DNA of 64,000 nucleotides, from NCBI GenBank assembly GCA_934047225.1, contig OW204011.1:12226339-12290338 (forward strand), written 5' to 3'. A program made the translations under genes and the position numbers. Of this stretch, positions 16,440 to 62,454 are shown one piece after another. This DNA is from Ypsolopha sequella (taxonomy: Eukaryota > Arthropoda > Insecta > Lepidoptera > Ypsolophidae). The stretch's first letter is position 1; the number at the start of each line of letters is the position of its first letter. The notes under the pieces are model-generated. The model ran no database searches, was not told where the DNA came from, and saw only the letters and a list, made by a program, of their open reading frames with translations.

Positions 16440-16924
16440 TTCGTTTTTTGTGTTTAATTAAACTTCCACTTTTGTGACACTTGTACTCGCATAAGTCACA
16501 TTTATATGGCTTCTCCCCTGTGTGTGTTCTCATATGTTGTTTCAACCTACCGCTTTGTCTTCACGCATAGTCACACATGTCACATTTATATGGCTTCTAT
16601 GCCGTGTGTTTTCTCATATGTCTCTTCAACTGAGAGGATTTGCTACTCGCATAGTTGCAAATGTCACATTTATATGGTTTCTCTCCCGTGTGTTTTCTCA
16701 TATGTACCTTCAAATCAGCCTTATAGCCACTCGCAAAGTCACACATGTCACATTTATATGGCATCTCTCCCGTGTGTTTTATCATATGTTTCTTTAAATT
16801 ACTGCTTTGGTAAGTCGCATAGTCGCACACGTCACATTTATATGGCTTCTCTCCCGTGTGTTTTTTCATAATATGTACGTTCAAAACAATTTTATAGCCA
16901 CTCGCAAAGTCACACATGTCACAT
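16440..16924 (-). pseudogene. Broken 3' part of the finger array
   Basis: After the two-base loss, about six more fingers continue in another frame: four intact ones down to 16597, then an in-frame TAG in the linker (A*KPYKC instead of GEKPYKC), a TGA inside the next finger, and the terminal YKCDLCEY...GSLIKHKKR motif near 16460. The sequence then passes directly into the BEL/Pao fragment. Whether the gene is dead or makes a shortened protein cannot be told from DNA alone. The terminal motif matches bases 1-60 of the window. Confidence 0.75.
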
Positions 16925-18822
16925 TTATATGGTTTCTCTCCCGTGTTTTCTCATATGTACCTTCAAATCATTTTTATGGTCATTCGCAAAGTCACACATG
17001 TCACATTTATATGGCTTCTCTCCCGTGTGTTTTCTAACATAATGCATCTTCAAATGATTGCTTTGGTAACCCGCATAGTCGCACACGTCACATTTATATG
17101 GCTTCTCTCCCGTGTGTTTTCTCATATGTACCTTCAAAACCTTTTTATAGCCACTCGCAAAGTCACACATGTCACATTTATATGGCTTCTCTACCGTGTG
17201 TTTTATCATATGTTTCTTTAAATTACTGCTTTGGTTAGTCGCATAGTCGCACACGTCACATTTATATGGTTTCTCTCCCGTGTGTTTTCTCATATGTATC
17301 TTCAAATGACTGCTTTGGTAACTCGCATAGTCACACATGTCACATTTATATGGTTTCTCTCCCGTGTGTTTTCTCATATGTACCTTCAAATCAGCCTTAT
17401 AGCCACTCGCAAAGTCACACATGTCACATTTATATGGCTTCTCTCCCGTGTGTTTCATCATATGTACATCCAAAACATTTTTATAGCAACTCGCAAAGTC
17501 ACACATGTCACATTTATATGGCTTCTCTCCCGTGTGTTTCATCATATGTACATCCAAAACATTTTTATAGCAACTCGCAAAGTCACACATGTTACATTTA
17601 TATGGTTTCTCTCCCGTGTGTTTTCTCATATGTATCTTCAAATGACTGCTTTGGTAACTCGCATAGTCACACATGTCACATTTATATGGCTTCTCTACCG
17701 TGTGTTTTATCATATGTTTCTTTAAATTACTGCTTTGGTTAGTCGCATAGTCGCACACGTCACATTTATATGGTTTCTCTCCCGTGTGTTTTCTCATATG
17801 TATCTTCAAATGACTGCTTTGGTAACTCGCATAGTCACACATGTCACATTTATATGGTTTCTCTCCCGTGTGTTTTCTCATATGTATCTTCAAATGACTG
17901 CTTTGGTAACTCGCATAGTCACACATGTCACATTTATATGGTTTCTCTCCCGTGTGTTTTCTCATATGTACCTTCAAATCAGCCTTATAGCCACTCGCAA
18001 AGTCACACATGTCACATTTATATGGTTCCTCTCCCGTGTGTGTTCTCATATGCCTCTTTAAATTACCAATATGGTTTCTCGCATAGTCGCACACGTCACA
18101 TTTATATGGCTTCTCTCCCGTGTGTTTTCCCATATGTCTCTTCAAATGACTGCTTTTGCAACTCGCATAGTCACACATGTCACATTTATATGACTTTTCT
18201 CCCGTGTGTTTTGTCATATGTATCTTCAACATACTGCTTTCGCAACTCGCATAGTCGCACACGTCACATTTATATGGCTTCTCACCCGTGTGTTTTCTCC
18301 TAATATGTATCTTAAGCTTACTGCCAGAGTTACTCGCATAGACGCACATGTCACATTTATACGGCTTCTCTCCCGTGTGCGTTTGAAAGTGCTCCATTAA
18401 GTGTCCTTTTCTACTAAATCTGTACGTACACAAATTACATTTATAACGCCTTTTCTCATCGTGGAGTCTTGAATGTTTTTCTAACGATTGAACTGTACGA
18501 GTTTGAAATGAGAGATTTGCTTCTGAAACTCCGTAATGAATGGATATATGCTGCTGCAATTTAATTTTTGTGTTAAAGTTTTGCTGACAATGATCACAGA
18601 TGTAAGTTAAAGAACACCTTTTTTTCTGCTCCGGTATTTTGAACACAGTTTTTATTTTATTAACGACTTTATTTTTCTTTGAAAGGTTTTCTCCATTCTC
18701 CTTTGTGGTCTGTTGCTTTGAAATACAATCTGTGACTTCATGAGGAGCTTCAACAAGCGGAACATCTTTTATTGCTTCAATCCGACTATTACTTGCGTCA
18801 TCACATATTGTAACTGGAACAC
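16925..18822 (-). CDS. C2H2 zinc-finger array exon (about 19 classical fingers) of a ZAD-type gene
   Basis: The open frame encodes a spacer rich in charged residues, one separate finger (YICDHCQQNFNTKIKLQQH), a degenerate finger lacking cysteines, then a run of fingers joined by HTGEKPYKC linkers. Each C2H2 finger binds one zinc and contacts about three bases, so the product would be a nuclear DNA-binding factor. A splice acceptor (TTGTATTGTTGCAG) places the exon start at 18822; the frame stays open upstream to 18994 but is not needed. Finger units are 84 bp and several (for example ASYQSSHLKIH, ASGYKADLKVH and ATNQSSNLKKH types) recur nearly identically, showing recent tandem duplication. 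Loss of two bases (a GTGTG reduced to GTG) just above 16940 shifts the frame and ends the protein at 16925. Exons on the same strand at 47.4 and 48.6 kb are likely 5' partners. Confidence 0.8.
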
Positions 18823-19014
18823 CTGCAACAATACAACAACCGTCAGATATTGTATATGCAATTGAGAGGGAGTGAGAGCGTTTATCAGTACTAGAAAGCT
18901 GTAATTTGGCATGGGTATACATATTTATTACGCCGATAAAGTGGTACAGTAACATTTTGAATAAGATTTTTTTTAGGGTACCTACCATACACATATTTTT
19001 TTTCTCATTTATCC

Positions 19015-19644
19015 CCTAGTGTGGGGTGTCGTTGGATAGGTAATTTAAAAATGGTGGAGGTGTGAGAAGACTATTTTTCGATCCAGGATTTCGTTTGCGA
19101 AATATTAAGCTTAAAAGTGTTAATTTTTGTTAGAGTCAAGTATCCCCCCCTGCCAGTGAAACGGTTGTATTTGGAGACGTGAAAAAAAATCACGGCAGTA
19201 GTAAAAATAACGAAATTTAAAGGAAAACTATCACAGCAAAGTAGGCTTTACAAGTTAACGAGTACAGATCGCGCCAAACTTTTAGTCCCCTCTAAACACG
19301 GGGCGATTCGCATCAGCAGGAACAAAATGTATGGACCGTTCTTGGGAAGACCAACTCACGAGCGTACTAGAAGTTTGGCTCGATCTCTATTAGTCTTGCA
19401 GAAGAATTCCGCATATTGTGCAGAGCAACTATGGAACCCTACACTGCGAGTGGCCCGACACGCACTTGGCGGGTTTTTTTTCATTAGTTTTTTGACCATA
19501 AGTCCCTTGCAATCCAGAAAAAAGAAAGCAACCCTAGTCGTGATTCTATATCTATTTATATCTTGATATATATCCAAAAAAATCACCCAGACTGTTTAAA
19601 CAAACACTAAATAACGTTTAGTTTGTCACTAATTTAATTATATA
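19015..19644. other. No gene; partial GGTTCC-type repeat
   Basis: Around 19435-19475 the text GGAACCCTACACTGCGAG and CCCGACACGCACTTGGCG resembles the end of the tandem unit seen at 3.8-4.8 kb. The rest shows no coding or repeat structure that I can support. Confidence 0.4.
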
Positions 19645-40042: not shown

Positions 40043-41185
40043 AACCGACTTCAAAAAGGAGGCGGTTCTCAATTCGACTGTATGTTTTTTTTTTTTTTTT
40101 TTTTTGGCGTTGTTACTCCATAACTCCGTCATTTCCCAACCGATTTGAACAATTCTTTTTTTGTTTGAAAGAGTATACTTCCAGGTAGGTCCCATTTTGG
40201 GTTTGGTCATGATCTGATTAAGGTCTTCAGAGATAGGCAGTGGAACTCCTCAGAAAATGACAGCATATCGCTCGAAATTGAGGCAATCGCTATGTACTTG
40301 GGTGCTGATTACAAGGTATTACTTGAAAATCGACATTCTTCCACCTGACCTTCGATCCTGGCTTCATCAAAATATTCACCATAGAACTCTTCAAAGGATC
40401 AGAGCACATAACTCGAGATTGCGGCAATCACTGCGTTAGGGTGCTGATTCAAGGGTATTACTTGGAGATTATTAGAATACCCACCTGACCTTCGATCCTG
40501 GCTTCATCAGCATAGAACTCCTCAACGGATGACAGCACATAACTTTGGATTGCGGCAACCAGTTTGTGTTAGGGTGCTCATTGCAGGGCATTGCTGAAAA
40601 TTGCCAGCGTACCCACCTGACCTTCGATCTTGGCTTCATCACCGTAGAACTCTTCAACGGATGACAGCACATAACTCGAGATTGCGGTAATCATGTTGTG
40701 TTAGGGTGCTGATAGCAGGAAGCTACTCAAACATGGCTACTTATACTCACTTGAACTTCGTTTCATATTAATACCACGTTTGCAAGAACTACCTATACCT
40801 CACAATTTAACCCAGCAACACTAAAAAATGTGAAATAAAATAAACTTTTAACAAAAAAAATAGCAACCGACTTCAATAGTAACAGCAGTCATTCACTAAA
40901 AAGTTAATAATAATTCTATAAAGACCGATGGTACCGAAGCAACACTTTTGCCGACTTCTTTCTTCCTGAAACATTATGTTATCTAGAAGTCGGCGTATTT
41001 CCTACGATACAGCAACATAGAAACCAATATAAGAACGCCGACTTCTAGATAACATAACGTTTCAGGAAGAAAGAAGTCGGCAAAAGTGTTGCTTCGGTAC
41101 CATCGGTCTTTATAGAATTATTATTAACTTTTTAGTGAATGACTGCTGTTACTATTGAAGTCGGTTGCTATTTTTTTGTTAAAAG
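40043..41185. mobile_element. AACCGACTTC-type lepidopteran element inserted in Copia integrase
   Basis: It starts AACCGACTTCAAAAAGGAGG, followed by a long T run. It is flanked by TTTATTTTT on both sides (40034-40042 and 41186-41194). The start is a sequence I know as widespread in lepidopteran genomes. The interior has four units of about 120 bp (40240-40740) and, at the right, a long hairpin. No transposase frame is visible. Confidence 0.75.
40240..40740. repeat. Tandem repeat, about four units of about 120 bp
   Basis: Each unit contains GACAGCACATAACTCGAGAT, GTGTTAGGGTGCTGAT and ACCTGACCTTCGATCCTGGC with variation. Units differ by small indels, so the repeat is not fresh. Confidence 0.8.
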
Positions 41186-41193
41186 TTTATTTT
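40837..41193. repeat. Near-perfect hairpin with arms of about 158 bp and a 40-base loop
   Basis: Bases 40837-40995 and 41036-41193 are inverted copies with very few differences (for example ACATTATG against CATAACGT in the arms). They contain GCAACCGACTTCAATAGTAA, ACTTTTGCCGACTTC and CTAGAAGTCGGCG. A transcript from either strand would fold into a long double-stranded stem, as in hpRNA/siRNA precursors. Confidence 0.85.
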
Positions 41194-41469
41194 TGATCAT
41201 ATAAACATGACTATATCGGCTGTAGTCATCTACGAAAGTAACAAAGTACTTATTTTCATTTAGTGTGGGCATTTGTATCGGCCCACCCACGTCACTATGG
41301 ACAATTTCCAAGCGCTCTGTTGTTCTTTGGTAGGTGCTCTCGCGAGGGGCAGGCGTTCTGTGTAGTTTCCCCTGTATGCAGGCTTCGCACTCGTCCAAGG
41401 TTTCAGATGCATTGAAGTTCAGTCCAAGTAAGTTGTTATTTTTGAGTGCAACTTTTAGATCTTTGGCGT

Positions 41470-41946
41470 TCATGTGACCAAGTTTTCTGTGCCCATGTTT
41501 GATGAGTTCCTTGCTGTTTTGGGAACAGTTTCATCATTATCATTGGTCAGATTGATGCGCTCGCATTTATCAGGTTTTATGTAGTAAAGACCATCTGCTT
41601 CTCTAAGTGCGGTGAGAGTTATTCCAGATTTAGGATTGTTGACCTTCGCTTTATTTTTGGTAAACAGGACAGAGCAGCCAGCATCTGTCATCTTACTGAC
41701 GGACAGCAGGTTGGTGCATAAACTGGGTACATACAGAGTGTCTTTTAAATGTGTGAGCGCTAGGCCATCACCATTTTTCGTTATGAAGGAGACTGTACCT
41801 GTTCCTTTAATCTCTGCAGTATGTTCTTCAGTTGCGAAGTTCAGTTTTCTGGACGTTTTCTCAATGGTCTTAAATAAGTCTCGTTGATACGTTATGTGAG
41901 ACGTACATCCGCTGTCTAGAACCCAAATGCTGTTTTCAGGTTTCAC
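41470..41946 (-). pseudogene. Copia protease region
   Basis: The frame encodes WVLDSGCTSHITYQRDLF, with the aspartic protease active site DSG (here D-S-G-C-T-S-H as in Copia), then a strand-rich region (ATEEHTAEIKGTGTVSFI, YVPSLCTNLLSVSKM) leading to the GAG-pre-integrase segment. A frame change at about 41470 passes into the next piece. Confidence 0.8.
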
Positions 41947-43562: not shown

Positions 43563-44836
43563 CCTAGTCGGTTTTTAAATACTGTCACTGGCCACTAATT
43601 TTAAATTTAGAATACCAAGAACAAAAATTAAAATGCTGTTCGATTTTCGAATATTTTTTTAATATATATGCGCAAAATCACAATTATTTTCATTCATTTT
43701 AACGATGGAGTGGACTCTCAAAGAGGACAGAGTAACAGTAATTGCATTGCATCGTTGCGGCAATTCACCGAAGACAATATTCAACTTGCCTCCAAAGTTA
43801 AAAATCACGAAGAGGTTCGTGTACCGTACAATCAAGAGGTACAATGAAACCTCTAGTATCGATGACGAGAAAAGAACCGGCAGACCTCGTTCCGTTAGGA
43901 CTCCAGGGATCATCAAAGCAATCAAGGCGCGTATTGCGAGAAATCCCGTCCGCAAGCAGAAACTGATGGCTTTGGAGATGGGATTAACCAGAAGTACAGT
44001 AAAAAAAGTACTCAATGAAGACCTGGGACTACGAGCTTACCGAAAAAAGAGTGGGCATCTTCTGAACGCGCGTCTGATAGCAATGAGAGCCAAGAAATGC
44101 AAAGTTTTGCTAAAGCGGTACGCAGGAAACCGACACCGCGATATCCTGTTTACAGACGAGAAAATTTTTGATATCGAAGAGAAGTACAACAAACAAAATG
44201 ACAGGGTGTACGCTACCAGCTCTGCTGCCGCTGGAAATGCTATTCCTAGAGTGCAGCACGGCCATCATCCATCATCAATCATGATTTGGTTGGGAGTGTC
44301 CTACTACGGTCCTACTGAAGTGCATTTTTGTGAAAAAGGTGTCAAAACCAGTGCAAAAGTGTACCAGGATACTGTTTTAGATCGCATAGTAAAAGATCTA
44401 CCCCAGATCTACTCCGCACCAGCGCATAAGGCCAAAACAACTCAGGAGTGGTTCGAGCGCCAGAATATCTAGTTAATAAGGCATCAAGATTGGCCCTCAT
44501 CTAGCCCTGAACTCAATCCACTGGATTATAAAATTTGGCAGATATTAGAGGAAAAGGTCTGCTCCAAACCTTACAAAAATTTGAGCAACCTAAAGTCATC
44601 ATTGATTAAAGCAGTGGCCGAAATCGACATGAATATGGTCCGTGCTGCTATTGATGACTGGCCGCGAAGATTGAAGGCTTGTGTGAAAAATGGTGGCAAT
44701 CATTTTGAATAAATTTTGTTTTTTATGTAAGCTAATTAAATTACCCTTTTAATTAAAAATAGGTTTTTTGAATGTCATGTCTAGTTTTCATTTTATAGCC
44801 AATTTTAATTGTGACAGAATTTAAGCACCGACTAGG
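43563..44836 (+). mobile_element. Mariner-type transposon, 1.27 kb, TA-flanked
   Basis: The ends CCTAGTCGGTTTTTAAAT and the complement of GCACCGACTAGG, with a further CTGTCAC, form inverted repeats of about 26 bp. TA lies at both borders (43561-43562 and 44837-44838). It contains a nearly full-length but inactive transposase gene. Confidence 0.85.
43705..44712 (+). pseudogene. Mariner/maT-like transposase, catalytic aspartate deleted
   Basis: The frame from ATG at 43705 has a helix-turn-helix region (VIALHRCGNSPKTIFNLPPK), the GRPRSVRTPGIIKAI hook, a second HTH and the first catalytic Asp (DILFTDEKIFDIEEKYNKQN). The second motif, normally a QQDSAPAHK-type stretch, reads LPQIYSAPAHKAK: a deletion of roughly 15 codons removed the aspartate. 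After a TAG at about 44470 the rest continues (WPSSSPELNPLDYKIW with the third Asp) to NGGNHFE and TAA at about 44712. Thus both a stop and loss of the second catalytic residue disable it. Confidence 0.85.
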
Positions 44837-45377: not shown

Positions 45378-47318
45378 AAAAATTCTACCTCGTGACGCTA
45401 GATGGTAAAAAGTGTAAAAAAATGTATACCTTTATTTCCGAAAATAGAGCAAGTAGTAAAAATAAAAAATAAAACCGTTGAAGTGCGAAAAAAAAATACC
45501 GGTAAAGTGCGAATCGGACTCGCGCATAAAAGGTTCCGTACCCCTACACAATACGGGTACGGAACCCTAAAAGTAAATAACAACAATATAGATGCCATAG
45601 CAACATTAAGGCGACAAAATAGCTTAGATTATAATTATGTAGAAATAAGTAAAGTTAATAAGTTGTTAAATATAAGTAAGTTGTTAAAGATTAAATATTA
45701 AAGATATTAAAGATTAAAGATATTAAAAAAACAAAGCGATAAAACAGTAGCGCCTGACAAACAATTCGGTAGGTACCTTTTTAGTACGGAACCCTAATTT
45801 TTATTATTTTACTTTAAAGTATTTACTACAGACTGCCCAAAGCTTAAACTTGTACTTGTATGTATTACCGTTCTAAATATAGAGCCTTTGTTATAATAAT
45901 CTGTTCCTTGGGTAAGGAACCCTAAAAAGGGTGGTTTATAATGTTCGACACATTCACCATTAAATAAGAGAAGATCAACATTTCATTATTTAAGAAGAGA
46001 AGATCAACATTTCATTATTTAAGAAGAGAATATCAACGTTTCGTAATTAAGTCACTAAAAAAACGGTAAAGTGCGAATCCGACTCGCACATAAAGGCTTC
46101 CCTTACCCCCACACAATACGGGTACGGAACCCTAAATGTAAATTGCAACAACATAGATGCCATAGCACCATCAAGGCGACAAAAAACAAGGCGATAAAAC
46201 GGTAGCGCCTGACAAAAAATTCGGTAGCTTTTTAGGAAGGAACCCTCATTTTTATTATTTGTTATTTTACTTTAAAGTAGTCTGCCTAAATTTTCAACTT
46301 GTAGGTACTTGTATGTATAACCGTTCTAACGATAGAGCCTTTGTTATAATAATCTGTGCTTTAGGTAAGGAACCCTAAAACACATTAAGTCTATTTAAGA
46401 AGAGAAATATCAACATTTCGAAAATAAGTCGCTTTTAAACCGGATAAGTGCAAGTCGGACTCGCTCACGAAGGGTTCCGTACTACCATCACACAATATGG
46501 GTACGAAACCCCAAACCAATATGGTAAATACCAACAATAAAGATGACATAGCAACATAAAGGCGACAAAAAACAAGGCGCTAAAATGGTAGCGCCTGGCA
46601 AACAAATCAGCACCTTTTGAATAAGGAACTCTAACATTTATCTGCCCAAAATTGTTGTATTATAAAGATAGAGCTGAAACAAATAACGTCGAATAATTGG
46701 ACCCCCCTTGGATTTCCATTTCATATTATTATTTGCCGTGATAGAGGACAAAGTAACATATATTATGTGCAAATATTTACGCGCTATATTCACCTATAAC
46801 GGCTGAAGCTGTAGACCCCTGTGATAAATAAAAAGACATCGGAGGCTTAGTCATAGGGTCACGGAACCTTAGGATACGGAACCCTAAAAATCAAGGTAAA
46901 AGGTTATTAATCCAGTAAAGCTTACAGAAAAATAAAGCGGCTAATGTTGTATTATTTGTATAAAGAGCACAAATAAAGCGCTGATGCGTAGAAATATCTT
47001 CTCAAATCGCTAACAAATTGGTATTTGGTAGATATGTTGTATATGTTGCTGTGCGATTGCGAAGTCACTATATTTTATTAGAGAAATAAAGATGACTAAT
47101 ATTAATACAGTTGTTTAATGTTGGTAGGTAACTAATTAGGAAACAATTAATGATACATTTGTTAAATAGGTGCTCCCATACTAACTAAAATGAAAAGGTG
47201 CTTCCATACAAACTAAAATAACAGACTTGGCTTTACATAAGATCTCACAACTTTTTACGGTGGAAAGATTGCATTGCGAGACTCGACATTTTTGTACATT
47301 TTATGTTTTTGATGGGAT
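45378..47318. repeat. Right arm of the large inverted repeat
   Basis: Inverted homologue of 286-645 plus 2826-5830. It carries three GGTTCCGTACC units (about 45480-45790, 46060-46260 and 46440-46640) and ends with TTTTTGATGGGAT. It lacks the LINE and other insertions of the left arm, so it serves as the empty-site reference. Its outer end is 63 bp from the acidic exon at 47381, inside the putative intron. Confidence 0.75.
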
Positions 47319-47380
47319 ATTAAATACCAAACCAAATATCCGTATACGATTTATCGAGTTTAATGGGAAAAATTACTAAC

Positions 47381-47701
47381 CTCAAGTGGATCATTCTCAT
47401 TCTTGACATCTAAAGTCACTGGCATGTCTTCCGTCTCAGTTTCTTTATATATTGGACCTATGTCTATAATCTCTGTCACATCTTCTATTTCAGTGTCTGT
47501 CACGTCTTCTGTATCAGTTTCTTCATATACTAGACTATGCTCTGCGTCTATATCTGCCATGTCTTCTGTCTTAATTTCTTCATATACTGGTCCTGCGTCT
47601 ATGTCTGCAATGTCTTCTGTTTTAGTTTCTTTATATTTTGTACTTGTGTCTATTATTTCTATATTTGTTCTGTATAGCTTTGATGTTGTTGCTGGTAAGG
47701 T
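47381..47701 (-). CDS. Acidic-linker exon of the ZAD zinc-finger gene
   Basis: A 321-bp (107-codon) segment open in one frame, bounded by an acceptor (TTACATTTCAG) at 47702 and a donor (GAG/GTTAGT) at 47381-47380. The protein is rich in Asp, Glu and Thr, with a repeated KTEDIADIDAGPVYEE / ETDTEDVTDTEIEDV pattern, ending KNENDPLE. Such acidic low-complexity linkers lie between ZAD and finger domains in insect factors. Phase 0 at both ends matches the ZAD exon. Joining to the finger exon needs phase 1; a second donor four bases later (TTA/GTAATT) would fit. The internal EDMADIDA-type duplication suggests slippage growth. Confidence 0.6.
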
Positions 47702-47822
47702 CTGAAATGTAACACAAAATGAAGCTTTTTAGCGTTCTGCACTAAAAAATAAGAAATAGGAACCCTTATGGTATGAATTTTGTGCTGTGTTCAAGGCGAA
47801 CTTGTAGTGTAATAATAAAAAA

Positions 47823-48547
47823 TATAGCAAGGTCACCTGTGTAGAAGTATAGCAACGTCACTTGTGTAAAAGTATAGCAACGTCACCTATGTAGAAGTAT
47901 AGCAACGTCACCTGTGTAGAAGTATAGCAACGTCAGCTGTGTAGAAGTATAGCAACGTCACATGTGTAGAAGTATAGCAACGTCACCTGTGTAGAAGTAT
48001 AGCAACGTCACTTGTATAGAAGTATAGCAACATCACTTGTGTAGAAGTATAGCAACGTCACCTGTGTAAAAGTATAGCAACATCACTTGTGTAGGAGTAT
48101 AGCAACGTCACCTGTGTAAAAGTATAGCAACGTCACCTGTGTAGAAGTATAGCAACGTCACCTGTGTAGAAGTATAGCAACGTTACCTGTGTAGAAGTAT
48201 AGCAAAGTCACTTGTGTAGAAGTATAGCAACGTCACTTGTACAGAAGTATAGCAACGTCACCTGTGTAGAAGTATAGCAACGTTACCTGTGTAGAAGTAT
48301 AGCAACGTCACCTGTGTAGAAGTATAGCAACGTCACTTGTGTAGAAGTATAGCAACGTCACTTGTGTAGAAGTATAGCAACGTCACCTGTGTAGAAGTAT
48401 AGCAACGTTACCTGTGTAGAAGTATAGCAAAGTCACTTGTGTAGAAGTATAGCAACGTCACTTGTATAGAAGTATAGCAACGTCACCTGTGTAGAAGTAT
48501 AGCAACGTCACCTGTGTAGAAGTATAGCAACGTTACCTGTGTAGAAG
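47823..48547. repeat. Minisatellite, 29 units of 25 bp, copying a 5' splice site
   Basis: The unit TATAGCAACGTCACCTGTGTAGAAG repeats for 725 bp with mostly single-base variants (CACTTG, GTTACC, ATAGAAG). The last unit overlaps the end of the ZAD exon, whose donor is ACACAG/GTAACG on the minus strand. Most units therefore contain ACACAG/GTGACG or ACACAG/GTAACG, and some the weaker ACACAA/GTGACG. Confidence 0.95.
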
Positions 48548-48677
48548 CCTCCAAATAGGTGTTCAGTACTCGTATGCACTGGTGAGAAGTAGATATAAAC
48601 TGATGGAAGTTCTTTAGTTTGGCGCTGCACTCCCAGCATATTTGCAGAGGCTGCTTTCTTTGCAAACATTGGAGGTA
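48537..48677 (-). CDS. ZAD-domain exon (second half of the zinc-finger-associated domain)
   Basis: A 141-bp (47-codon) phase 0-0 exon between an acceptor (CTGTTTTCAG) and a donor (CAG/GTAACG). It encodes QPLQICWECSAKLKNFHQFI followed by a helical part ending NTYLEASTQ. The pair ICWEC with a preceding basic segment and following aromatic-basic helix is the second zinc-binding half of ZAD, which mediates dimerisation in insect C2H2 factors. The first half, with its CxxC, must be in an upstream exon that I could not find. The donor lies inside the minisatellite. Confidence 0.6.
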
Positions 48678-49284
48678 CTGAAAACAGTAAGATTCGTCAC
48701 TTTGTTAAGAGATTCCGTGTATGCTCTTAAGTCGAAAGTAGCCCTCAAACACGTAGGGAGGATGGGTGGGGCAAACGTAGGTTCGAAGTACTTCGAAGAT
48801 ACACTTGCAACCTGGTGTTTTTACACCCATCAGTCTTAGTGGACAACTGGACAACTGACTTGCTGTATATTGGCAAACAACATCATTATTTAGTAAGCGT
48901 TAACGGTATGAAGTAATACAATTTTTACTAGCTCAACTCAATTTGCTTCTTGTGTTGCTCTTGATTCCTATAATTTTACTGTGTTATACCATCTGGGTAG
49001 TGTTGGTAACCCTATCTCATCGAATACCAGCATGACACAGACATTGTGAGAACAATGACAAAATGTTACTCTTAAAAAATAAACCTAGCAGTTTATGTAC
49101 CTGTACAGTCATCAGAAAAAGTGGGCCTTTTTTCATCTTTTTTCCAGTCAGTGAAAACAAAGTTCGATGCTGGTACCTCATCAGCTCATAAAGAAGCCCT
49201 TTTATTTGATACCCCATACGTAAGGTTTCAGAAAAAAGAAACTTGTTCTTCTAAGTTGTAACTTCAAATTGCACTGTTTGTTTT
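48678..49284. other. No further exon identified
   Basis: This is upstream of the ZAD exon on the minus strand and should be intron. I see no CxxC-bearing open segment with good splice sites. Around 49195-49235 the start of a foldback-related sequence (TTTGATACCCCATACG) appears. Confidence 0.35.
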
Positions 49285-49705
49285 GTATATATTTTTTTTC
49301 TGAAACCTATTGTGTGGAGTGTCAAATGTAAAGGCTTTATGAGCTGATTGTAAAAATGAACTATGTCATTACATTTCAGCCACTCCTTCCTAAAAAACAT
49401 TTTCAAAACCCACCAAGCATGAGCAAACAGAATTTTGAAACTATTCTGGTTTATAATTTTTATTTTTTTTTTCACTTTCATGAGGATATTAGGAGCAAAG
49501 TTCAAATATGTTTCACAAAAATTTTTTCAGCCTGTTCTCCTGTCCTCCTGGAGGAGCTTGGTATGTTTTGAAAATGTTTCATTGTTTTTTTAAGGAGTGG
49601 CAGTAGTTATAATGTAGTACATTTTTACAATAAGCTCATAAATCTCATTCATTTGATACCCCACACAATAGGATAGAGAAAAAAAAATCCATACAAAAAA
49701 TTATG
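49285..49705. repeat. Foldback element, about 420 bp
   Basis: Bases about 49290-49430 and 49560-49700 are inverted copies. Shared elements are CCTATTGTGTGGAGTGTCAA, TATGAGCTGATTGTAAAAAT and GCCACTCCTTCCTAAAAAAC with their complements. The centre is about 130 bp and T-rich. There is no coding capacity. Confidence 0.7.
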
Positions 49706-50544
49706 ACATCATACACTCGCTCATTCACACTTTGGCACAAACACCCAGTAGTACAGAGGTCTTAATCAAGAATTAAATAATTGATTGTAGTTGGTTTTGA
49801 ATTAGTTATTTAATTTTGTCTACTTATAAGTTCTTAAGTTTAATATTGCATGTTATTTTTAATTTGTTGCTGTCAATAGTTAGGAGCACTTGAAAATTTT
49901 GTACATTATCAAAGTTTATTTTTATATTGCCGATATCTGACTAATATTATAAATGCAAAAGTTTGTGTGTGTGTAATTGGGTGTGTTAATTTTGTAAATC
50001 TCGAGCATGTACTGATAAAAGTTAAAGAAAACTTATGTTGGTGTAACGAGAATGCCTCTAATTGGAACACATAGTAGTCCAAATGTTAGTTAAAGTCACT
50101 ATGTATGTTATTATGTTGGTGGAACAAATAAATAAATCTAAATATTAAGTGAAAATATGGTCTGCATTTTAGAACAAAGTATTGTTTCGATAATTTGTTG
50201 TATTGAAGATATTAAGCTCACAGTGCTCGCCTGAACTTCTGATAAGCGCTGATTGCTGATTGTGTCCTTATTTATTATTTGCATAAATTTTGATTTTGTG
50301 TCTTACTTATCGTGGTAGGTATCCCGGTGGACTTAACTTGACTTGGACTTTATTAAAGAAACCTATCTCTGTGTGTTAGAATATTATATGATATCTATGA
50401 TTACCTACCTCATGATATTTTCATTTATGGTCTGTGCGGATAGACTACACTCTTAACTTTAATTGTAAATAATTAAGATTTCTTCTGTATGTAAGTGACA
50501 TATTGTCTTTAATATATTATATATTGTCTATTACATATTGTCAC
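49706..50544. other. Non-coding; common interspersed repeat at about 49930-49985
   Basis: TAATATTATAAATGCAAAAG followed by a GT-rich run is a sequence I know from many lepidopteran introns. No gene is supported in the remainder. Confidence 0.35.
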
Positions 50545-50552
50545 TCCCACTA

Positions 50553-52145
50553 ACCATCATATTTTCGAAATCTATTAAGGAAGGTGTGTTTCCAGATATT
50601 TGGAAAAAAGCCCTTATAACACCGGTATTTAAAGGTGGAGACAAATCATCTGTGACCTATATCTAAGTTATGCATTTTTGGTAAGATTCTCGATAACTCA
50701 GTAAGTCTCAGCTAGTGTTCGTCAGCATATTTTACCGCAACAACACGGTTTTATGACAGGCAGGAGTGTAGAAACTAACCTCTTAACATTTAAGGATTTC
50801 GTAATTACAGCTCTAGAAGATGGCCACCAGGTGGACGTCGTGTATACCGATTTTTCCAAAGCTTTCGATAAAATTAATCACAAAACTCTAATTTCTAAAT
50901 TACTTCAGATCGGTATACATGGCGACCTACTAAGGTGGATTTAATAATCGCTCTCAGGCAGTAGCACTTAAAGGTTTCGTTTCAAACTTCCTCCCAGTAA
51001 GTTCTGGCGTTCCACAGGGCTCCCACTTAGGACCCCTATTATTTATGTTATACCTTAATGACATTGGTCATATATTTGGTAAATCTGCATACTTTCTGTT
51101 ATATGCAGATGACATGTAAATTTACCATATTGTAGATAATCATAGTGACCGCATTGCTTTACAAGAAGAGCTGAATAGGTAAGTGTCTTATTGTAGAACA
51201 AATTCTTTATTTTTAAATGTAGATAAATGTTGTGTTATTAGTTATACTAGGAAATTACACACAGTCAAAATTGACTATAATTTTGCAGGCACTCCCTTAA
51301 ATCGTGTGGATAGAATACGAGATCTTGGCGTGATTCTCGATCCTAAAATGGATTTCAATCTTCACATAGATCACATAATCAATAAGGCGTTTAAGCGACT
51401 TGGTTTCATTCTACGACAATGTCAACCTTTTAAACGTTCTTTTAGTTACAAAATCCTATATTATAGCTTTGTACGAAGTATTCTCGATTTTGGTAGTGTT
51501 GTCTGGAGCCCTCACTACTCAATTCACACAAACCGTATCGAGAAAATACAACATAAATTTTTAAAGGCATTGGACTACAGAATGAGAACTCTTTTTATTG
51601 ACTATGAATCCTCTGAAAAACGTTACAATATTACATCCTTATCTGACCGCCGTACTATCACCGATGCAATGTTTCTCTATAAACTCGTAAATAATGAAGT
51701 TGATTGCCAAGCATTGCTCCAAAACCTATCATTTAAGATTCCCAGGCCCTTGTCTCGTAAAGATCCATTTAACTTGTATACCTATACCTGCCGTACTAAC
51801 TACTCAAAGAATCGCTGTATGAATCGTAAGTACTCCTAATTCTTATAAACTTTTCAGTGACATCGACATTTTCTCCGAAAGTATATACTCATATAAAAAT
51901 AAGGTGTTGCAAAATTTATCAAATGCATAATTCACTCACATAATTCACGTTAAAAGTTCTTTCCTTTTTAATTATTCATTCAGTACATTCTAATCTTCTT
52001 ATGTAATGTGTTTGTAATGAGCTTTCAAAAATAATTGTTTTCTGTATATGATTCTTTAGGTTTGTTTGTGTTATTTGTAAGTGTTCATACTTTGTGTTGT
52101 AACTGTTTGTAACCTGAATAAAAATAAAATAAAATAAAAAAATAA
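50553..52145 (+). pseudogene. Jockey/CR1-like LINE, RT and C-terminus with poly(A)-like tail
   Basis: Coding begins in RT with VFPDIWKKALITPVFKGGDK, continues MTGRSVETNLLTFKDFV, VVYTDFSKAFDKINHKTLI, SGVPQGSHLGPLLFMLYLND and FLLYADD (catalytic YADD), with stops at about 50943, 51117 and 51180. A 218-codon frame (51183-51839) gives the C-terminal part (LGVILDPKMDFNLHIDHII and RSILDFGSVVWSPHYSIH). It ends in AATAAAAATAAAATAAAAT near 52120-52145. No endonuclease. It is the only LINE here with YADD rather than FADD. Confidence 0.85.
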
Positions 52146-52149
52146 AATT

Positions 52150-52976
52150 TAATAAGACCTAAAACTTGAACTCAGGTGGTTGTGGAAAGGGTGACAATTA
52201 ATTTTTACATTTACCCCGGTATTTAAGAATGCTAACTAAAGTTACAAGCATTTAAAAGTGCAGAAGTGTGGTCATTACAGAACCCTGTTCTTGGTAGGAA
52301 CACTAGGGTTGCAACGCAAAATTAATTGTAACCAGATTAGTGTTGCGATCCAGGTAGAAAACTCAACCCAGTGTGAGTTTATAACTGATTATTACCTGGA
52401 GTGGTAATTCCATAATTTACTTTTAAACAATTGTATCGTTTTGAGTATTTGTCATTTAAAATTTCACTATCAAGGCATAAAAAAGGTACCACAACACAGA
52501 TTTGGATTGGAGTGAATGAGTAGATAACGGGATTATCGATGGGAAAACATACTTGGAAAATGTTCACAACCCAGAAATCCCAGAAGCAAGCCAATAGATA
52601 GGTTAGGTATGGCGAGTCGCAGACCGAGTGCCAAAGAAGGTTGCCTACACCCTAACCTAGATCTGAACACATTCTGTAAGCACACGCACCGTACATCATA
52701 GAAAACTGCAAAACTCATGCAAAGTCATGAAAGTTTACTTACCTCTAATTTATCGTGTTCGGAAGTAATGCAGGAACCGACAATTTTCCAGTACTTTACA
52801 TCAATTAAGGTCAGATTTCTATCGATAGACAAACAAAATGCACAAATTGTTATCATCATGTATTTTTGCAAATCAAAATCTTATTATTATTATTTTCTTG
52901 TTTATGGCTTCTGATAATGTTTGTGACTAACACATTTAATTCCGCCAATGTCACGTCATAAACCAAAGCACTGTAA
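52150..52976. other. No gene seen
   Basis: Short minus-strand frames at 52379-52718 have no family resemblance. One reads RCVCLQN, which recalls the first ZAD cysteine pair, but the context does not support a ZAD. Confidence 0.3.
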
Positions 52977-52978
52977 TA

Positions 52979-53563
52979 GGGTACGTTTCGTAACGTGTGA
53001 TTATCACTCGGAGCGATGCGAATTTTACCCTGCATCGTTCAAAAATCGACCCGAGTGAAACCGAGGGTAAACGAACTGTTACCTGACAGTTGCGCTAAGT
53101 GTTTAGAAACGCTTTCGGGAAATGTGAATATCGCACTGACAAGTGCGATTTCTAACTCTGTTTGGGTACCGTTAAAATTCGCCTGACAGTTGTCATTTCG
53201 GAGTTTTCTCGGGAATCGGACAATTTTTGAAAATAGAATTCAACATTTCCGTACGAATACGGGAAAATGTTTCGAAACTGCTTCGACAGGATTATGGCTT
53301 GAAAATGCAAAGGTTGCAATGCCATCCATATTAAAAGCAATAGGTATTTAGGTACTTTACTTAATTTATTTATTTTGATTTGAGGTTATGTATTTACTTG
53401 ACGTGTGTCACTCCAGACCGTTTCAAAACGCTTTTCTCACGGGAATCACTCGCAAGCGTTTCAAAACCAGATCTTTCGTTCTCTTTCTAGTATATAGCTT
53501 TGTCTCTTTCTTAAAAACGAGTGAAATTTCGCACGAAGATCACACGTTTTGAAACATAGCCTT
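52979..53563. mobile_element. MITE-like repeat (family A), copy 1
   Basis: The left end GTACGTTTCGTAACGTGTGA and the complement of the right end (CTATGTTTCAAAACGTGTGA) match, giving inverted tips of about 20 bp. Bases 52977-53357 occur again inverted at 59105-59470. No coding content. Confidence 0.55.
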
Positions 53564-60734: not shown

Positions 60735-62293
60735 TTACAAAAGGTGTTCGAAATGCCCACCAGCTGCCCTGATACAGGCTCTGCATCTCCTAACAAAAGA
60801 ACGCTTGATTCTTCGTGCGTAGCCAGCGTGTGAAATTTCTTGAGAAGCTGTCTGGATGCGCTGTCGTAAATCTGCTATGTTATTAATAGGTCTCTTGTAG
60901 ACTTTTTCTTTTATGCATCCCCAATAAAATAAATCTAGAGGATTTAGGTCAGGTGACCGTGCAGGCCACAGAATGGGCCCTAGACGTCCAATCCATCTTC
61001 CTGGGTAGTGTTCGTTTTGAAAATCTCTTACACGCAGAGCATAGTGTGCAGGACAGCCGTCGTTTTGCAGCCACATTTGTTGGCATTATGCCGGCGCCAG
61101 ACATGTGTCCACTTATTTGCACACTTCTTCGACGACTTTGTACACACATTTGGCGTACCTGCCACACATGCTTCGCAAACTCTTTTCTCCACAGTATGCT
61201 GGTAGACAACAAAGGAGATGGACGACGATTTCGTGGACGCAGTGTGCTTATATTATTTATGTGCATGTAATTCTGCAACAAAATATATCGAAACGTCCGA
61301 GAAGAAGGCGTGAATGGATGTGTGTCCATTTTGAACGATCAAACACGTAGTTTCTCACACAACCGTTCCGTACAACAGCGCTCGCGCAACTGGTCTTTGC
61401 CAATAGGCCAAATAGTGTGGCAGGCTACGCACTTATTTGAACACATTCCTTTGATGTGCGCTAAAAAACCGATACCGCTCGGCGAAGTGCAAATCTGTGT
61501 ACAAACTTTGGAACACATAGACAAAGTCTCGTGCCACACAGTGTGTCCACTCGAGTGTGCAAATAAGTGGACACAAGTTTATCGGGACTTCTTCCAAAAG
61601 CATAGGGAGCTGGTTTCTTAAAAAATCTAAATAAATTTCAGCATTTAATGTAGCTGGCAGTTCATACGGACCAATAATTTGCCCGTTGATGATCCCCGAC
61701 CATAAATTTATCTTAAATTGATATTGAGATTTGTCTTCCCGTTTCGTGTGTGGGTTTCTCAGCTCCCAGCTGTGCAGGTTGTGAAGGTTCATAAATCCAT
61801 CCTTTTGGCAGGACGATTCGTCGCTCCACAGGATTCTGTCGAAGAAATTCACGTCTTCCCGCATCTTTCTTAACATCCTCCGACAAAAAACAACTCTTGC
61901 GGCATAATCCCTTGGCAGTAGTGCTTGTACACGCTGCACGTGGTAGGGGTGGAACCCATATCTTTTTCTTAATATAACTTGAGCCGAGCTCTTTGAAATG
62001 CCAGTGCGTCGCTCAATCTCACGAACTGAAATAGTCGGATCTGCTGCTCTTTCCGCTAAAACTTCTTCTTCGTCTACTGTACGGGCCCTTCCTTCAGGAA
62101 CACTACCTATGCCTGTTCCAGGAAATCTGCCTTCATTAAATGCGTTGCTGACGCGTATAAAAACACTGTGGTCTGGATGTCGACGGTTTCTGTACTTCCT
62201 TCGGTAGAGTCTTGCTGTTTTCCTGGCGTTGCCTTTAGCTACGCCGTAAAAGTAGAACATTTGCGCATATTCAGGCGGTGAGTATGGCGGCAT
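60735..62293 (-). pseudogene. Mariner-like transposase (DD41D), interrupted by MITE G copy B
   Basis: I take the ATG at 62293 because MPPYSPPEYAQMFYFYGVAK begins the usual N-terminal domain (DUF4817-like); the frame is open further up. An HTH (SVREIERRTGISKSSAQVIL) and YGFHPYHVQRVQALLPRDY follow. The first catalytic Asp is in FDRILWSDESSCQKDGFMN. After the MITE, MWLQNDGCPAHYALRVRDF has the second Asp, and WPARSPDLNPLDLFYWG the third. Forty-one residues lie between them (DD41D). It ends in GGHFEHLL inside the TIR homology. Both halves are clean, so the MITE insertion is the main lesion. Confidence 0.85.
61089..61575. mobile_element. MITE family G copy B
   Basis: Nearly identical to 30585-31085 over about 487 bp. 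The left tip TGCCGGCGCC is preceded by TTA. The right tip is missing its last 14 or so bases (GTGGACACA, then unrelated AGTTTATC). It splits the transposase gene. Confidence 0.85.
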
Positions 62294-62454
62294 TGCGTAA
62301 ATAGCACGAAACGACGCTGTCAGTTTCACCAAAGCACAAAGCAAACAAATCCTAGAAGTCTGATAATTAGTAACACCGATTTACGATAACGTCTAGCGCG
62401 TATGGTACGAATTATCACACTGACTGACCAGGTCCACATTGTGTAATCTTGACA

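Follow-up and report, generated by a model that had tools for sequence, protein, structure and literature searches.

A 25-bp minisatellite that includes an exon's own 5' splice site in ZAD-like zinc-finger genes of Ypsolopha sequella

How does a gene come to carry many copies of the 5' splice site of one of its own exons, and how are its transcripts spliced in their presence? The question is raised by a tandem array in the lepidopteran Ypsolopha sequella, located within a stretch of 64,000 nucleotides (contig OW204011.1, positions 12,226,339 to 12,290,338) that was analysed as a whole and is called the window here. Work on how the spliceosome chooses among donors of almost equal strength mostly uses minigenes that contain two or three sites. 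The original prediction, made from the letters of this stretch, described a 25-bp unit repeated exactly 29 times, the last unit being the end of a ZAD exon with its donor, and saw in it an array of competing 5' splice sites. The parts of the gene are given below in window coordinates, with a slash at splice boundaries:

52743..52859, minus strand: probable exon 1 (MMITICAFCLSIDRNLTLIDVKYWKIVGSCITSEHDKLE / GTAAGT), MMITICAFCLS..., with the first CxxC of the ZAD-like domain, phase 0
48537..48677, minus strand: exon 2, 141 nt, phase 0 at both ends (YLQCLQRKQPLQICWECSAKLKNFHQFISTSHQCIRVLNTYLEASTQ), acceptor TTACTGTTTTCAG, donor CAG/GTAACG
48531..48536, minus strand: donor 0 (GTAACG); of the 29 donors only this one is in frame with exon 3
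47702..48536, minus strand: intron 2, 835 nt, mostly array
47823..48547, minus strand: minisatellite, 29 units of 25 bp, gene-strand consensus CTTCTACACAG/GTGACGTTGCTATA, from Tandem Repeats Finder and unit-by-unit reading
47823..48522, minus strand: 28 internal units, candidate decoy donors, 16 with G/GT and 12 weakened or broken
47381..47701, minus strand: exon 3, acidic linker (TLPATTSKLYRTNIEIIDTS...NENDPLE), acceptor GTTACATTTCAG, phase 0 from exon 2 (TLPATTSKLYRTN...)
16597..19015, minus strand: C2H2 zinc-finger exon region, open reading frames with zf-C2H2 at E 3.6e-66, about 30 kb downstream

Tandem Repeats Finder reports the minisatellite at 47823-48547 with period 25, 29.0 copies, 92% matches, 0% indels and a score of 1240. 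On the gene strand the unit, CTTCTACACAG/GTRACGTTGCTATA, comprises 11 exon bases and, beginning with the donor, 14 intron bases. When the units are numbered 0 to 28 from the exon side, unit 0 (48547 down to 48523) starts with the last 11 bases of exon 2 and contains its donor CACAG/GTAACG (...GAGGCTTCTACACAG/GTAACGTTGCTATA), the last exon base being 48537, so the terminal unit is indeed the exon end that the original prediction took it for. The number of 29 units was also correct and all of them are exactly 25 bases long, but the copies are not exact: each has 0–3 differences from the consensus CTTCTACACAGGTGACGTTGCTATA on unit-by-unit reading. Behind the array the intron continues with the T-rich sequence TTTTTTATTATTA. 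A chance repeat is ruled out by 29 units in register and by the 26 paralogous arrays described below. A search of 47300-53000 for known structured RNA gave no Rfam match at gathering score.

ZAD zinc-finger genes encode two N-terminal CxxC pairs, followed by a linker and a C2H2 array. The same order is found here, with CAFC in exon 1, CWEC in exon 2, which encodes the second half of the ZAD-like domain, a linker and a putatively linked C2H2 exon downstream. The C2H2 region at 16597-19015 is probably the 3' part of the array-bearing gene, judging from a relative on contig C26 that has a similar zinc-finger open reading frame, also on the strand of exon 2 and about 6 kb downstream of it. Exon 1 of the window gene was likewise located via the C26 relatives, in L045. 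The 3' end of exon 3 (CTTGAG/GTTAGT, 47381) was placed by sequence reading, without a transcript, and frame computations took the first 313 of its 321 nt. Exon 2 alone matches zf-AD (PF07776) with 17.5 bits (profile 41-67 of 75, E 0.005) and the assembled exons 1-3 match more weakly, with 12.1 bits. Since these scores lie under the curated cut-off of 28, we term the gene ZAD-like and claim no membership. The best Pfam row for exon 2 is Nup98_GLEBS, likewise below its cut-off, and a comparison with solved structures gave no match to exon 2.

Two further repeats lie in the coding parts. Exon 3 is composed of repeated acidic segments of the KTEDMADIDA types (window 47381-47701, minus strand; L015, L016, L026, L029-L034), which match each other within and between paralogues, so that linker length seems variable among copies. 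The zinc-finger array at 16597-19015 (minus strand) has about 22 copies of an 84-bp unit, and its reading frame shifts near 16925-16950, so that the gene stops at this point or else its final fingers lie out of frame.

A search for the exon across the species' own genome, which comprises 867 Mb in 151 contigs, gave at least 40 matches (40 of 42 candidates scored), 26 of those found lying on contig C28 at 11.23-12.43 Mb and 14 on C26. All 26 C28 copies found carry the array, in the same register, starting 11 bases before the exon end. Contiguous units number 3, 3, 4, 5, 5, 5, 6, 6, 6, 9, 11, 12, 17, 18, 25, 25, 29, 29, 32, 34, 35, 35, 41, 44, 55 and 83. Some arrays resume after insertions, and the total ahead of exon 3 ranges from 5 to 102 units in the 25 C28 copies fetched with exon 3; where a copy has two exon-3-like stretches (e.g. 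L034), the first one was taken. For the 83-unit copy both fetched stretches (exon 3 in L021) sum to 83 + 50 + 57 + 6 = 196 units, a total that perhaps holds, provided that a 6.4 kb unfetched gap contains no other exon 3. A probe of four units gave at least 232 matches, and all among those listed (40 of 55 candidates scored) fall on C28 at 11.23-12.43 Mb, which disfavors a genome-wide satellite, though other sites may exist.

On C26 the situation is different. We read 13 of the 14 matches there, leaving out a partial match at 9130798; in all 13 the array is absent and CAG/GT is kept. The nearer relatives read TCTACACAG/GTGACGTTGCTATACTTTTTATTATTA or close to it, which amounts to about one unit, followed by nearly the same T-rich intron as after the window array. 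The four distant relatives (77–88% identical over the exon) are without a second unit and their intron differs. Intron 2 is already present in the two C26 relatives that were followed as far as exon 3. In a flank tree that included 4 of the C26 copies read, all 26 C28 rows group into a single starred branch (98/98); this tree is midpoint-rooted and carries a long-branch warning from the tool. Since array-free relatives show about one unit and nearly the same intron, the array probably arose in the C28 branch, and the single-unit state is likely ancestral. The same relatives speak for the proposed derivation of the array from the exon's own donor junction. We infer that 25 bp across the junction of exon 2 and intron 2 (11 exon and 14 intron bases) were duplicated in tandem, the first slip probably being aided by CTT, which is common to the unit start and the intron just after it (TATA/CTTTTT). 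The array would then have been carried along as the gene cluster duplicated and would have grown or shrunk in each copy.

We also assessed how fast the arrays change in length. Four loci identical over the flank (630 of 630 positions, i.e. 500 bases upstream and 130 of the exon) hold 35, 35, 25 and 25 units, and another pair with 2 flank differences holds 41 and 44. Identical flanks with unequal unit counts indicate that array length changes faster than the flank. Rapid change in copy number, which had been anticipated between individuals, is seen here between near-identical paralogues. It could be that the assembly has left some haplotypes uncollapsed and shows them as near-identical loci; the difference would then be one of alleles rather than paralogues and the independent genes would be fewer. 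A plain ungapped comparison of L001 and L002 over 4 kb gave 853 mismatches in 4001 positions, an indel being probable.

The arrays also differ in structure. In L003/L022 34 and 15 units surround a partial copy, and pieces of array recur with pieces of the post-array intron. In these loci as well as in L019, L020, L021 and L034 arrays are split, or duplicated with the following intron piece, and further arrays of 2 to 57 units are found down the same intron; in the last four, additional arrays lie beyond inserts. In L017, L018, L023, L040 and L041 the step lengthens to 28 bases, 3 more than usual, at intervals of a few units; this is a second type of unit in one subfamily.

As a simple measure of donor strength we determined the pairing energy with the U1 5' end, which would not reflect a preference for A at +3, should one exist. 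Donor 0 (CAGGTAACG) pairs at -8.0 kcal/mol, the common decoy CAG/GTGACG (CAGGTGACG) at -8.1 and CAAGTGACG at -1.6. Of the window's 28 internal units, 15 come within 0.1 kcal/mol of donor 0, a single unit has -6.5 and the other 12 range from -1.4 to -1.7. The claim that most units offer a donor of nearly equal strength needs qualification: G/GT is present in 16 of 28 (units 1, 2, 5, 6, 9, 10, 11, 14, 15, 16, 17, 19, 22, 25, 26 and 28) and 15 match donor 0 in energy, but in 12 the donor is weak or disrupted.

Over the first arrays of the 26 C28 copies, G/GT is found at donor 0 in 26/26 and at internal units in 438/551, while 58/551 have GT without the G at -1 and 55/551 have lost GT. These counts are not independent, the copies often being near duplicates; dropping four loci that are the same in flank and copy number leaves 370/460 internal units and 22/22 for donor 0. 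In 66 internal unit types the AG/GT positions show a mean of 7.25 variants versus 4.10 elsewhere (permutation P for so low a value 0.915), with the G at -1 as the most variable position (17/66). Given that AG/GT varies more than the other positions and that 438/551 units have G/GT, the decoys seem to be neither kept for a function nor purged.

Joining exons 1 and 2, k units and exon 3 (first 313 nt) gives an open frame solely at k = 0. Premature stops follow after 117 residues at k = 1, after 116 at k = 2 and after 103 at k = 3 to 28, the latter position being just past the ZAD-like part. A unit length that is no multiple of three had led to the expectation that other donors shift the frame, and all 28 internal donors do end in a premature stop when joined to exon 3. 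Exon 2 itself has no stop in 38 copies (26 on C28, 12 on C26, the partial L081 left out), and the exon 3 acceptor and phase-0 frame are preserved in all 25 of the 26 C28 genes that were fetched far enough, whatever the array length. The exon at 48537-48677 with its donor, as originally predicted, is supported by these results. The suggestion of regulated splicing is not, since internal AG/GT lacks extra conservation and frames are intact at every array length seen.

The explanation we consider best, with a probability of about 0.72, is a hypervariable intronic minisatellite that arose by junction duplication in the C28 branch and is mostly tolerated, with donor 0 working and the decoys leaking slightly. 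Splicing would mostly use donor 0, which adjoins the exon, would be helped by exon context and is alone in giving the full reading frame. The internal donors would be a by-product with some leakage, chiefly to units 1 and 2, and leaked transcripts, frame-shifted or stopped, would probably be degraded. That genes keep their frames beside as many as 102 repeats is an argument that splicing is able to deal with them. Against a dominance of donor 0 it has to be said that its U1 pairing is no better than that of CAG/GTGACG decoys, so simple pairing gives no reason for it. The A at +3, found at donor 0 in 17/26 copies and in 26/551 internal units, could be a hint of selection; the flank tree needs only 4 changes for the +3 types of donor 0, and selection via this base is thus not supported. 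The 11-base exon end is array sequence as well, and exchange within the array may keep it uniform without selection.

Arrays of this kind are already known from human genes. A short-unit minisatellite in one human gene, IFI6 (6-16, G1P3), was reportedly described by Turri et al. in 1995; the title of that work appears among the references of PMC2572611 and PMC2915984. The closest counterpart, as far as described in the available part of PMC5954066, is the VNTR in intron 18 of human ABCA7, with a 25-bp unit in about 12 to 427 copies. This repeat lies next to an exon whose splice donor it contains, the unit opening with the donor GT, and a transcript retaining one 25-bp unit acquires a frameshift and a premature stop. 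Like the ABCA7 repeat, the C28 arrays have a 25-bp unit, begin at and include an exon's 5' splice site (26/26 copies) and vary widely in copy number, here between paralogues including loci with identical flanks. In contrast, the ABCA7 unit starts at the intron as described, whereas the unit of the window includes 11 exon bases. ABCA7 is one human gene with alleles; here a single genome holds 26 paralogues, with arrays of 3 to 83 contiguous units, together with array-free relatives that show the likely starting state. The arrays are convergent because the genes are unrelated.

Intron gain by tandem duplication is treated, for instance, in PMC4974935. As in the AGGT model of such gain, a stretch with AG/GT has been copied in tandem on C28, but no new intron results, the two C26 relatives checked already having intron 2. 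Variable internal repeats in human genes of segmental duplications are minisatellites with a mean unit of 30 bp, according to what was available of PMC2812944; like the C28 arrays they are found in sizeable sets of recently duplicated genes, in part at exon-intron boundaries. Those arrays are mostly short (mean 4 units) and lengthen exons or form new introns, whereas here array-free relatives have the intron too, and on C28 the array occupies a position just within it. In the literature searched no insect minisatellite derived from a donor was found, which is weak evidence as the searches were not aimed at both together. What is unusual on C28 is the paralogue series with array-free relatives and the exon bases within the unit. 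The exon context being nearly the same throughout, 26 paralogues of 3 to 83 contiguous donor copies and close relatives that have a single copy make the family a natural dose series. The likely starting state is preserved, so that the birth of a minisatellite from a splice junction and its spread with a gene family can be seen, and human ABCA7, whose array length is tied to disease risk, provides an independent counterpart.

The main rival is a donor competition with real effect, in which the proportion of non-productive transcripts depends on array length, and the output of each gene is tuned or disturbed accordingly. We regard it as unlikely, yet it is the main rival because one unit of the ABCA7 repeat, which also lies at a donor, is retained in a transcript and the length of that repeat affects splicing (PMC5954066, in part). 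By analogy, noisy use of the decoys is plausible. The equal U1 energy of 15 of the 28 window decoys fits such competition, as do the premature stops from 28 of 28, which for units 3-28 fall at one place after 103 residues. The ABCA7 isoform that the authors stress in the part available lacks the next exon through skipping; it is not the one with a retained unit. On C28, frames and exon 3 acceptors are intact in the 25 genes fetched at any array length, and decoys are neither preserved nor removed (438/551 with G/GT, no positional constraint).

Somewhat less probable still, the array might matter mainly as DNA, serving as a recombination substrate that aids expansion and rearrangement of the near-identical gene cluster. 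Array pieces recurring with the post-array intron (L003/L022, 34 + 15 units) and beyond inserts (L019, L020, L021, L034) would agree with this, but the family has multiplied on C26 too (14 matches), where the 13 copies read have no array.

There is little to suggest that the gene is not expressed and exon 2 a relic, the array being unrelated to splicing. The constraint on exon 2 is weaker within the array-bearing C28 copies (dN/dS 0.68, on a short exon with few changes) than within the near C26 copies (0.20), the zf-AD match is below the Pfam cut-off and the zinc-finger exon changes frame near 16925-16950, all of which such a relic might show. Against it, dN/dS between clusters is 0.37 for C28 versus near C26 and 0.31 for C28 versus far C26, 38 copies of exon 2 are stop-free and a phase-0 exon 3 follows in 25/25 fetched far enough.

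Least probable of all, and in our opinion very improbable, is that the arrays are rows of zero-length recursive exons. The AG/GT of each intact unit would then be acceptor and donor at once, like a Drosophila ratchet point, and splicing from donor 0 to the AG of a unit would regenerate the same donor at the exon and leave no trace in the mRNA. If true, such silent internal splicing would explain how up to 102 (perhaps 196) splice-site copies are tolerated in the intron of a coding gene. The unit CTATACTTCTACACAG/GTGACG does juxtapose acceptor-like and donor-like sites, with AG/GT in 16 of 28 internal window units, and reading of the units places a UGAC core 21 nt before the next AG. UGAC serves as the core of a branch motif. 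Juxtaposed acceptor and donor sites also define ratchet points in the part of PMC8605326 available, which places them mostly in long introns in Drosophila, whereas intron 2 has 835 nt. The pyrimidine tract looks poor by eye, and the core is not conserved inside the arrays (7.25 versus 4.10 mean variants; G at -1 most variable, in 17/66 unit types), which speaks against a maintained ratchet function, not against occasional use.

RNA folding over the array was considered as well. The stretch GUGACGUUGC is predicted to pair with the same stretch of another unit (G-U pairs included), giving nested stems of up to 12 bp over the donors. Six units fold at -34.4 kcal/mol, with shuffled sequences nearly equal (z -1.37, 19/200 at least as good). 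The energy needed to open donor 0 is 3.4 kcal/mol for a single unit, against 5.4 to 8.4 kcal/mol for 2 to 29 units of the window, and predicted folding also buries the array-free C26 donors (three tested). Masking of decoys by hairpins was rejected on these grounds and remains a lead.

Between and around the exons the window holds three transposon-like reading frames: HTH_29 (E 3.2e-10) at 43663-44472 on the plus strand, gag_pre-integrs (E 2.1e-8) at 41168-41530 on the minus strand and a DUF4817 helix-turn-helix frame (E 2.8e-9) at 61433-62380 on the minus strand.
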